A stretch of DNA of 64,000 nt from Pseudarthrobacter naphthalenicus (GTDB lineage Bacteria > Actinomycetota > Actinomycetes > Actinomycetales > Micrococcaceae). The stretch lies in contig NZ_JARESG010000017.1 in NCBI RefSeq assembly GCF_029076445.1, positions 1 through 64,000 of the forward strand, in the 5' to 3' direction. This document shows positions 56,254 to 58,278 of this stretch, piece after piece. A program made the translations under genes and the position numbers. The notes under the pieces are model-generated. The model saw only the letters and a list, made by a program, of their open reading frames with translations, was not told the origin of the DNA and ran no database searches. How positions within the stretch are numbered: position 1 is the stretch's first letter; every line of letters starts with the position of its first letter.

Positions 56254-56325
56254 AACTGGCCAGATTAGTGGGCGATGCTGGACAAAGCGAAACGTACCGG
56301 GGAAAATCGCGGCCACCCCTTCTGC

Positions 56326-56331
56326 TAATCT
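56326..56331 (+). promoter_or_regulatory. Leaderless promoter -10 for the hflX leader ORF
   Basis: TAATCT at 56326-56331, seven bases, then ATG 56339 of a six-codon ORF. Confidence 0.55.
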
Positions 56332-56338
56332 TGAACCC

Positions 56339-56359
56339 ATGTTCCTGATCTTCGAGTAG
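56339..56359 (+). CDS. Six-codon leaderless leader peptide (MFLIFE) upstream of hflX
   Basis: ATG TTC CTG ATC TTC GAG TAG. It starts seven bases after a near-consensus -10, so it should be translated from a leaderless mRNA. The base after its stop codon begins a 10-bp long-range stem. Position and structure suggest a regulatory leader peptide for hflX. Short ORFs arise by chance, but the exact promoter spacing and the abutting stem make this one worth attention. Confidence 0.55.
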   Translation: MFLIFE

Positions 56360-56511
56360 CCGGCACGGGTCTGCGCTGTCCATAGCCGCCCGTCCCCAAG
56401 CCAGTGCCCCACAGCGACGCAGGTATCAGCCTTCCGTTTGTGCGCCACAGGGCAGGTCTTCCGTACCTGCCCTGCCGCAGGGCCAGACTCGAGTGATCAG
56501 CCCCGTGCCGG
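56360..56511 (+). promoter_or_regulatory. Candidate attenuator in the hflX leader
   Basis: CCGGCACGGG at 56360-56369 pairs perfectly with CCCGTGCCGG at 56502-56511. Inside are two hairpins that cannot form together: A, 56450-56457 with 56465-56472; and B, 56469-56474 with 56478-56483. A ribosome stalled on the MFLIFE ORF would cover the 5' arm of the long stem and could change which structure forms. Confidence 0.5.
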
Positions 56512-56712
56512 TCCCTGTTCTGACATTGCCTGCGCCACTTCCCTCACCCGTGCATCAGCAATGATGTGACCACCTCCGCGACGCCGCTTCAACCAGGCCG
56601 TGGAGCAGACCAGGAGGCCAGGATGACTGCAAGCCGTCAGCCCAGCGCGAATACTTCACCAGAGACCAACAAACGGCACTATTCTGAAATTGCCGACCCT
56701 TCAAAGGAGAAC

Positions 56713-58278
56713 ATGACCAGCCAGCCCAACACCGGTTCCGATCCAGCAGCCCAGGATATGAGTCCTGAGGAAATCCAAGCTGTCATCGACCGGATTCTCG
56801 CCAAGGATGTCCCGGCCAGGAACGTCAAAGCCACCGACGGCGAGAAGGCCGTGCTTGGCAGGGCCCAGGCCATTTCCCGCCAGGAAGACGAACACACAAG
56901 CTACGACGGCGACCAGCAGGATCTCGACGAACGCCGCGCGCTGCGGCGCGTGGCCGGCCTCTCCACCGAACTCGAAGACGTCACCGAAGTCGAATACCGG
57001 CAGCTGCGGCTCGAAAGGGTGGTGCTGGCCGGGCTTTGGTCCGAAGGCACCCTGGCGGACGCCGAGAATTCCCTCCGCGAGCTCGCGGCTCTCGCCGAGA
57101 CTGCAGGTTCGGAAGTCCTTGACGGGTTGGTGCAGCGCCGCGCCAAGCCGGACCCGGGCACGTTCCTGGGTTCCGGCAAGGCACAGGAGCTCAAGGACAT
57201 CGTTATGGCCACCGGCGCGGACACCGTGGTGGTCGACGCCGAACTGGCGCCGTCCCAGCGGCGTAGCCTGGAGGACATCGTCAAGGTCAAGGTCATTGAC
57301 CGCACGGCCCTGATCCTGGATATCTTCGCCCAGCACGCCAAGAGCCGTGAAGGCAAGGCCCAGGTTGAGCTGGCACAGCTGGAATACCTCCTGCCGCGCC
57401 TGCGTGGCTGGGGTGAATCGATGTCCCGGCAGGCGGGTGGCCAGGTGGGTGGTGCCGGTGCCGGCATGGGCTCGCGCGGACCCGGTGAAACCAAGATTGA
57501 GCTGGACCGCCGCCGGATCCGCACGCGCATGGCCAAGCTGCGGCGCGAGATCGCCGCCATGAAGCCGGCACGGGAAACCAAGCGGGCCAACCGCCGTCGT
57601 AATTCTGTGCCTTCCGTGGCGATCGCAGGATACACCAACGCCGGAAAGTCATCCCTGCTCAACAGGCTCACGGACGCCGGCGTGCTGGTGGAGAATGCCC
57701 TGTTCGCCACCCTGGATCCCACTGTGCGGAAGGCTGAGACCTCCGACGGGCTGGGTTACACGCTGGCGGACACCGTGGGCTTCGTCCGGTCCCTGCCCAC
57801 CCAGCTGGTGGAGGCGTTCCGCTCCACGCTGGAGGAAGTGGCCGACTCCGATCTGATCCTGCATGTGGTGGATGTGTCGCACCCGGATCCTGAAGGCCAA
57901 ATAGCTGCCGTCCGCAAGGTATTCAGCGAGGTGGACGCCCGGAAGGTGCCCGAGATCATCGTGCTCAACAAAGCCGATGCCGCGGACCCGTTTGTGGTGG
58001 AGCGCCTCAAGCAGCGCGAGCCCCGCCACGTGGTGGTGTCCGCACGGACCGGCCAGGGGATTGCCGAACTCCTCAAGGCCATCAGTGACGGCATTCCCCG
58101 GCCAAGCGTCAAACTGGAGCTGCTGATCCCGTACGACCGGGGTGACCTCATCAGCAAGCTGCACGAGACTGATGCCGAGATCCTCAGCCTGGATCACGGC
58201 GAACACGGCACACGCGTGCTGGTCATGGTCCGGGAAGGCCTGGCGGCTGAACTGGAACCGTTTATCAACCATGACTGA
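56713..58278 (+). CDS. hflX: GTPase HflX
   Basis: 521 residues from the chosen start. Ribosome-associated GTPase that splits stalled or hibernating ribosomes. The N-terminal HflX domain has FLGSGKAQEL and the coiled QLEYLLPRLRGWG region; the MGSRGPGETKIELDRR motif follows. The G domain has GYTNAGKSSLLN, DTVGFVRSLP and LNKAD. ATG 56713 has AAAGGAG at ideal distance; ATG 56623 (with GGAGG) and GTG 56566 are longer alternatives. Downstream DinG-like gene overlaps by 8 bp. Preceded by a structured leader with a leaderless mini-ORF. Confidence 0.93.
   Translation: MTSQPNTGSDPAAQDMSPEEIQAVIDRILAKDVPARNVKATDGEKAVLGRAQAISRQEDEHTSYDGDQQDLDERRALRRVAGLSTELEDVTEVEYRQLRLERVVLAGLWSEGTLADAENSLRELAALAETAGSEVLDGLVQRRAKPDPGTFLGSGKAQELKDIVMATGADTVVVDAELAPSQRRSLEDIVKVKVIDRTALILDIFAQHAKSREGKAQVELAQLEYLLPRLRGWGESMSRQAGGQVGGAGAGMGSRGPGETKIELDRRRIRTRMAKLRREIAAMKPARETKRANRRRNSVPSVAIAGYTNAGKSSLLNRLTDAGVLVENALFATLDPTVRKAETSDGLGYTLADTVGFVRSLPTQLVEAFRSTLEEVADSDLILHVVDVSHPDPEGQIAAVRKVFSEVDARKVPEIIVLNKADAADPFVVERLKQREPRHVVVSARTGQGIAELLKAISDGIPRPSVKLELLIPYDRGDLISKLHETDAEILSLDHGEHGTRVLVMVREGLAAELEPFINHD

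Follow-up and report, generated by a model that had tools for sequence, protein, structure and literature searches.

A conserved mini-ORF at the predicted start of hflX mRNA in Arthrobacter relatives and its probable role in drug-responsive attenuation

The 64,000-nucleotide stretch of Pseudarthrobacter naphthalenicus DNA analysed here (the window) carries hflX, the sole strong HflX match in its genome; the next match has an E value of 2.4e-7, and the weaker matches are taken, by their weakness, for other GTPases. Upstream lies a six-codon open reading frame, placed so close to a promoter-like element that translation could begin at the first nucleotide of the mRNA. Does a ribosome on this mini-ORF control hflX? 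An original prediction proposed that slowing of such a ribosome would release a long stem and change hflX expression. Conservation of the ORF, synonymous change within it and a compensated RNA helix uphold the idea of a ribosome-sensing attenuator, but the parts proposed for the switch itself were wrong.

The start of the leader is arranged as first described, with TAATCT (56326–56331), the seven bases TGAACCC (56332–56338), an ATG, six codons and TAG (Table 1). The predicted transcription start site of this distal promoter is the A of the mini-ORF ATG, which would make the mRNA leaderless. By eye, many leaders of the genus also carry a GGGAAACC(G) motif 5′ of the distal −10 element, at a variable distance of about −30 to −55 from the mini-ORF; one leader (L078) has several copies.

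Table 1. Features of the hflX leader in the window
Feature	Position	Strand	Basis or remark
Extended −10, TGC TAATCT	56323..56331	+	TG-N-TANNNT pattern in genus
Predicted leaderless mini-ORF ATGTTCCTGATCTTCGAGTAG, MFLIFE*	56339..56359	+	Also 5′ arm of long-range helix
P1 hairpin, ACGGG 56365–56369 with CCCGT 56389–56393	56365..56393	+	Fold; directly after stop
P3 hairpin, GCG-AYGC-AGG ... CCT-TC-CGC, conserved internal loop	56414..56437	+	Strict motif in 73/90 leaders
Hairpin A	56448..56474	+	Kept with base changes in seven near relatives (by eye)
Anti-ORF segment ACTCGAGTGATCAG	56487..56500	+	Pairs with 56345–56357 (codons 3 to stop)
C/U-rich stretch after anti-ORF, candidate termination site	56501..56610	+	Pyrimidine content, no U-tract
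AGGAGG Shine-Dalgarno-like site 56612–56617 and upstream ATG 56623	56612..56625	+	In frame with hflX
Box 1 CGTCAGCCCAGCGCGAA	56635..56651	+	85–100% per position, 89 sequences; 5′ of proximal promoter
Box 2 CACTATTCTG, −10-like TATTCT 56680–56685	56677..56686	+	Nine of ten positions 99–100%, one 93% (89 sequences)
hflX Shine-Dalgarno AAGGAG	56704..56709	+	100% in 89 sequences
hflX, ribosome-splitting GTPase HflX, ATG 56713	56713..58278	+	TIGR03156 GTP_HflX, 438 bits, cut-off 217

For the window's genus (g1), which judged by named records includes Pseudarthrobacter, Paenarthrobacter and Arthrobacter strains, two overlapping draws of genomes yielded the hflX locus from 61 of 61 and 24 of 24. The mini-ORF is present at all 95 loci collected (78 from genomes and 17 from named records, partly of the same strains). 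A regular expression free of promoter terms recovered 94 of these, giving 88 distinct leaders; the other, MFLVFE in L098, was missed by the expression and identified separately. With no promoter filter applied, all 88 leaders nonetheless carry TG-N-TANNNT ending 6–7 nucleotides 5′ of the ATG and a C at position −1. Among the 59 genomes searched, the mini-ORF pattern occurs exactly once in 36 of 37 belonging to the genus, the exception (G014) carrying MFLNFR, and never in 22 from other families; the reversed pattern, used as a control, has no match in the 59. A LIF-type pattern, searched for in 39 genomes, matches in 20, each time at the hflX locus.

An attenuator leader is expected to open with a short ORF that is conserved as coding sequence, and this one is. 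The peptide is MFLIFE in 68 of the 88 distinct leaders; rarer forms are MILNFK (4), MFLNSK (3), MFLNFK (3) and MILISK (2), with MFLTFK, MFMIFE, MFIILV, MILIFK, MFLNFR, MILNFQ, MILIFQ and a truncated MFLI found once each. L3 is kept in 86 leaders, F5 in 81 and I4 in 75, position 4 being Asn or Thr in 13, and the stop codon is UAG in 70 and UAA in 17. The three most variable bases are all silent (CTG/TTG at codon 3, TTC/TTT at codon 5 and TAG/TAA at the stop), followed by those behind E/K and I/N changes. Codons 2 and 6 are nearly constant at their third bases despite the degeneracy there. In the truncated form (L077, MFLI*), apparently the product of a 2-nucleotide loss, the ORF strand still pairs downstream. 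The mini-ORF with its leader is real and strongly conserved, and the conserved leader is very probably functional.

A second hallmark of an attenuator is a helix that a stalled ribosome would prevent, and by comparison of leaders the mini-ORF RNA is one arm of such a conserved helix. Across the genus, the partner of codons 3 to stop, the anti-ORF, lies about 95–190 nucleotides downstream. When the downstream region is dinucleotide-shuffled 200 times for comparison, the duplex reaches p ≤ 0.05 in 59 of 90 leaders (a set that includes one g52 leader, L054) and roughly 0.01 in 41. The cognate duplex has an energy of −12.3 kcal/mol, compared with −10.5 ± 0.2 kcal/mol when regions are swapped between leaders, and 0 of 2,000 permutations reach the cognate value (88 of 89 g1 leaders; L003, in which the anchor motif is absent, was dropped). 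Both tests were made without pre-selection for the duplex. With a longer ORF arm and 500 shuffles, 7 of 11 leaders of the genus reach p ≤ 0.05; in L013 and L042 the best longer-arm partner lies near the upstream Shine-Dalgarno site, not at the anti-ORF.

In an alignment of 51 leaders, pairing amounts to 90% in one part of the helix and 86% in the other, figures that are biased towards the helix because the leaders derive from 69 pre-chosen for a fair duplex (energy ≤ −10.5, position 95–165), with 18, mostly Paenarthrobacter-type and short leaders aligning badly, left out. Columns 16/209 change from G-C to A-U in 8 leaders and to G-U in 5, and columns 11/214 change from U-G to A-U in 8. The covariation score of the whole named structure is 0.172, against 0.133 for shuffles and 0.02–0.07 for slid versions of the structure; none of the 500 shuffles or the slid versions comes up to the real structure in this score, in paired cells or in doubly changed cells. 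Counts of doubly changed pairs and of further pair types are not above shuffles (reached in 168 and 147 of 500, respectively), and single pairs are often unformed, that at the third base of codon 4 in 31 and the outermost in 22 of the 51 leaders. We give the swap and shuffle tests more weight than these figures, because the 51 leaders are pre-selected and related.

Compensatory changes, which the original prediction proposed to seek in its stems, are found in the ORF:anti-ORF helix. The 10-bp stem exists where it was placed (56360–56369, CCGGCACGGG, is the exact reverse complement of 56502–56511), but it is private, matching perfectly in 1 of 90 leaders; an 8-base part occurs in 5, the window included. 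The window leader has two perfect 10-bp inverted repeats, and at least one arises in 5% of 300 dinucleotide shuffles. With its match in a single leader, we rejected this stem as a conserved switch. The stem crosses the helix, so the two could coexist only as a pseudoknot. The two exclusive hairpins postulated inside it also exist, sharing bases 56470–56474 rather than 56469–56472 (hairpin A pairs 56448–56457 with 56465–56474, and hairpin B spans 56470–56482, counted on the window sequence), but a conserved switch between them is not borne out, B being lost in four of seven near relatives. Hairpin A has mismatches in some of the seven (by eye).

Two other hairpins, P1 straight after the stop codon and P3, lie within the domain closed by the ORF:anti-ORF helix. 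In the 51 aligned leaders, 84% of the lettered cells of P1 are paired, two of its pairs are changed on both sides and gaps occur in 2–14 leaders; a ribosome that stalled at the stop codon would have the 5′ arm of P1 within its footprint. The P3 helices are 99.3% and 97.5% paired in the same leaders, with U-A/C-G exchange, and P3 is the only structure found by RNAalifold on a MAFFT alignment of 74 leaders. The window's own P3 fails the strict motif, and its outermost pair is G-U. The conserved internal loop (AYGC/UC) suggests that P3 may be more than a spacer, perhaps a protein-binding or rRNA-like element. Compared with 4,227 curated Rfam models at E values up to 1, the leader has no match.

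Mini-ORFs also precede hflX in other genera. From 66 non-g1 genomes with hflX located, 60 loci of the family were surveyed for an ORF of at most 15 codons that follows TANNNT-N6-7 with an ATG within about 520 nucleotides upstream of hflX. Such an ORF occurs at 27 of the 60 loci, and 15 of 29 genera are positive; dinucleotide shuffles give a mean of 0.7 and a maximum of 2, and the reverse strand gives 1 of 60. ORFs of no more than seven codons are found at 22 loci, the shuffled figure being 0.4 and the reverse-strand figure 0. A looser scan (NTG starts, N5-8, up to 20 codons) matched the reverse strand at 6 of the 60. Among 63 more distant named loci (L102–L165 without L156), the strict pattern is present at eight (L117, L121, L122, L126, L127, L128, L130 and L131) and absent from the other 55, so the feature is patchy. 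One of the records (L107) is titled Vibrio cholerae strain 35D, although its hflX is 81% identical to the window's and falls among Arthrobacter hits; it is probably contamination or wrongly labelled.

The Glutamicibacter-type start pattern matches in 30 of 295 family genomes, and all 20 matching loci that were fetched lie before hflX. Peptides of this type include MTFIFV, MTFVFV, MTLIYS, MTLIFV, MTLIFL, MTLFFV, MTYLFFV, MTYL and MTFL; elsewhere there are MILIFV (L054), MFLMYL (Micrococcus lylae), MRLFK (Sinomonas), MWIYLR, MLSFL, MKNK and others. The LIF at residues 3–5 thus appears in g52 and g51 as well (MILIFV, MTLIFV, MTLIFL), and some survey peptides (MKNK, MKK, MFTS) are unlike macrolide sensors. 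These findings bear on whether start and stop codons are incidental, with selection maintaining a promoter and an RNA domain whose 5′ strand reads as an ORF by chance. A role as the 5′ arm of a compensated helix, and the near-constant degenerate bases of codons 2 and 6, would suit that account, which we nevertheless regard as very improbable: the most frequent changes in the ORF are silent, LIF is found again in genera whose RNA sequence differs, and ORFs of seven codons or fewer greatly outnumber their shuffled and reverse-strand counterparts in other genera.

One way in which pairing of the ORF could turn hflX off is seen in the Glutamicibacter-type leaders (g52 and the named Glutamicibacter loci, n = 14). 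Pairing begins at nucleotides 1–3, for example ATGACTTTCGTATTCGTCTAA with GTAGACTGCGAAGTCAT in L200, and the ORF duplex reaches p ≤ 0.05 against shuffles in 12 of the 14. Straight after the helix, nine have 7–9 T in 10 nucleotides (L193, L194, L196, L198, L200, L201, L127, L247 and L054), and the remaining five have 3–5. When nucleotides 1–125 of nine leaders are folded, the ORF stem closes two or more hairpins and adjoins the U-tract where there is one. As modelled, helix and U-tract together make up an intrinsic terminator with the mini-ORF as its 5′ arm, on the principle reported for MsrDL. Outside the genus more broadly, a test of the ORF alone within 220 nucleotides gave p ≤ 0.05 in 17 of 46 leaders, 6 of them at 0.01; this set omits three of the survey loci and some further probable repeats. 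With a longer ORF arm, 7 of 53 leaders, probable duplicates included, passed p ≤ 0.05 against 500 shuffles.

The off-switch could alternatively act on translation, as in ErmC, with the mini-ORF RNA sequestering the hflX ribosome-binding site until a stalled ribosome frees it. Indeed, at a g39 locus (L257, MTYMFFL) the ORF pairs with the hflX Shine-Dalgarno sequence and AUG (p = 0.004 and 0.017 in two tests), and blocking the ORF there lifts the unpaired probability of the ribosome-binding site from 0.0 to about 0.3; at the two other g39-type loci covered, L253 and L128, such pairing does not go beyond shuffles. In the window, AUGUUC has a pairing partner, GAACAU, where hflX starts, and blocking the ORF raises accessibility at SD2 from 0.32 to 0.67, but the A that this pairing requires is C in 79 of 89 sequences. 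L013, L025, L036 and L093 show a large accessibility change at one of two ribosome-binding sites. Averaged over 45 of the 90 leaders (44 g1, one g52), access is essentially unchanged by ORF blocking (0.32 to 0.33 and 0.51 to 0.53). Simple exposure of the ribosome-binding site is unsupported on average in the genus (90 leaders with a span limit of 250; every second leader without limit), and we consider translational control unlikely as the main mode at this locus.

No U-tract occurs in the window or, on average, in the genus, and a scan of the window for short-loop intrinsic terminators, which is blind to long-range stems, returned none. With neither a U-tract nor a consistent effect on the ribosome-binding site in the genus, transcription attenuation was chosen for the window, where termination may proceed through Rho or a U-poor terminator. 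Across 73 leaders of the genus, the 40 nucleotides after the anti-ORF are 66% pyrimidine, versus 58% before it and 59% further on, and T makes up 25% of the first 15 nucleotides, versus 17% in the leader. A part of the leader further on (56586–56611) matches other places in relatives and is unique in its own genome.

The reading that we favour, and hold to be probable from comparison of the sequences, is a drug-responsive (macrolide-type), ribosome-mediated transcription attenuation of hflX by the leaderless mini-ORF. A transcript from the distal promoter would begin at the AUG of the six-codon ORF. In the absence of drug, a ribosome would translate MFLIFE and depart at once, and the freed ORF RNA would pair with the anti-ORF about 130 nucleotides downstream, closing the folded leader domain, with transcription presumably ending shortly after that point. 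In the presence of a macrolide-type drug, translation would be arrested near the stop codon, as it is by erythromycin on MYLIFM. With the ORF covered by the arrested ribosome, the closing helix could not form, so that RNA polymerase would read into hflX, whose product would then split stalled ribosomes.

The case for a drug as the signal lies in the peptide. MFLIFE is the MsrDL leader peptide MYLIFM with two substitutions, F for Y at residue 2 and E for M at residue 6, and since an ORF at the predicted mRNA start so resembles a macrolide-sensing peptide, hflX is probably switched on by antibiotic stalling. Several findings weigh against this: position 4 is Asn or Thr in 13 of the 88 leaders although I4 is essential in MsrDL, one ORF (L077) is truncated, UAG outnumbers UAA as the stop codon, and the peptides of some genera are not known to match any sensor. 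A leader that senses general translation stress, such as amino-acid shortage or slow ribosomes, would account for peptides that vary between genera (MKNK, MWIYLR, MTYL), and whiB7 is also induced by drug-free stress (PMC10727445). Against this, the g1 ORF has no run of codons for one amino acid, its LIF core is the same as that of MsrDL, ORFs of 4–7 codons would make poor aminoacyl-tRNA sensors, and the target gene encodes a ribosome-splitting GTPase; general stress therefore seems to us quite unlikely to be the signal.

Beyond the candidate termination region, the leader holds further conserved elements. At the upstream Shine-Dalgarno-like site the commonest base is present in 80–98% of 89 sequences at 56612–56616 and in 58% at 56617, and the T and G of the upstream NTG are each present in 82 of the 89. 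Use of the upstream ATG would extend HflX by 30 residues in frame, and its frame to hflX differs in L050, L081, L083, L084 and L099. Box 1 has a single exact copy in the genome; by eye, the reverse complement of its core (TTCGCGCTGGG) stands 5′ of hflX in L106, a locus without a mini-ORF. Both boxes are near-invariant and have a fixed spacing before hflX, where a transcription factor site is possible. Box 2 is the probable proximal, basal promoter of hflX, and in the attenuation model its −10 element would supply the basal hflX transcript. With at most one mismatch, it recurs at about −36 to −27 relative to hflX in L054, L057, L058, L117, L121, L122, L126, L127 and L131, and is present at only 6 of the 60 survey loci of other genera, all six of which have a mini-ORF. 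Two relatives without a mini-ORF (L109 and L112) have ACTACCATGG at the Box 2 place (by eye).

The window's genome, which is 99.97% complete, contains two matches to the WhiB domain. WhiB7 has an AT-hook, and neither match has an AT-hook-like motif, so the sensor for hflX appears to sit in cis. We tentatively extend this picture, as a reading that is plausible but short of probable, to a class of leaderless attenuators that would span the family of Arthrobacter relatives. In such a class a short drug-sensing ORF, mostly of 4–7 codons, would itself form the 5′ arm of the off-switch almost from nucleotide 1; the off-switch would be a terminator, a U-poor terminator or a clamp on the ribosome-binding site; and diversified peptides would control hflX in cis without WhiB7. 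Divergence of the peptides between genera perhaps reflects the sensing of different ribosome inhibitors.

If correct, these proposals would set another type of hflX attenuator alongside rli80 and uORFC-6-1, would mean that common soil actinobacteria have an MsrDL-like sensor and would suggest a mode of HflX control without WhiB7. They would also supply dozens of natural short peptides for mapping drug-specific stalling on leaderless mRNA. Among open-licence PMC papers we found no report of a leaderless mini-ORF attenuator of hflX of this kind, nor another hflX attenuator in which a leaderless ORF is a terminator arm. Published work credits HflX with protection from macrolides or lincosamides in Listeria, Streptomyces and Mycobacterium abscessus.

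The closest known sensor is MsrDL of mefA/msrD, which shares the six codons plus stop, identical M1, L3, I4 and F5 and an aromatic residue 2. According to PMC10314930, L3A and I4A abolish induction and Y2 is least needed; erythromycin or azithromycin stalls the ribosome at the stop codon with codon 6 in the P site, and the stalled ribosome covers the first half of the terminator hairpin, much as it would cover the 5′ part of the off-switch helix here. The window peptide MFLIFE* is likewise a hexapeptide with L3, I4 and a stop at codon 7. The same paper reports that a UAG stop lowered MsrDL induction; UAA is the preferred stop there, whereas UAG prevails in g1. Unlike MsrDL, the window ORF is predicted to be leaderless, is actinobacterial, precedes hflX and serves as an arm of the long-range stem itself, and its stalling is proposed by analogy.

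Among regulators of hflX-type genes, rli80 of Listeria hflXr resembles the present leader in having a small ORF and exclusive RNA structures and, as described in PMC6310831, shows ribosome-dependent induction by lincomycin and erythromycin. It differs in encoding a 14-residue peptide with an RLR motif before a second hflX copy; the leaders described here have mostly 4–7 codons, lack RLR and are predicted to be leaderless, and the window's hflX is the sole strong HflX match of its genome. No RLR occurs among the mini-ORF peptides listed for g1 and the other genera, the nearest being MRLFK, in Sinomonas (L117) and in L058. Likewise, uORFC-6-1 of Bacillales hflX couples an upstream ORF with covarying RNA found by comparison, but according to PMC8632094 its peptide contains Arg-Leu-Arg, its structure lies wholly 3′ of the uORF start codon and it has 51 representatives; the motif is distinct from the present one. 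The whiB7/wblC upstream ORFs (PMC10727445, PMC7157823) provide an actinobacterial precedent for attenuation by ribosome-targeting drugs, and in Streptomyces and M. abscessus the WblC/WhiB7 regulon includes hflX; there, in contrast to the cis arrangement proposed here, hflX is controlled in trans by WhiB7/WblC.
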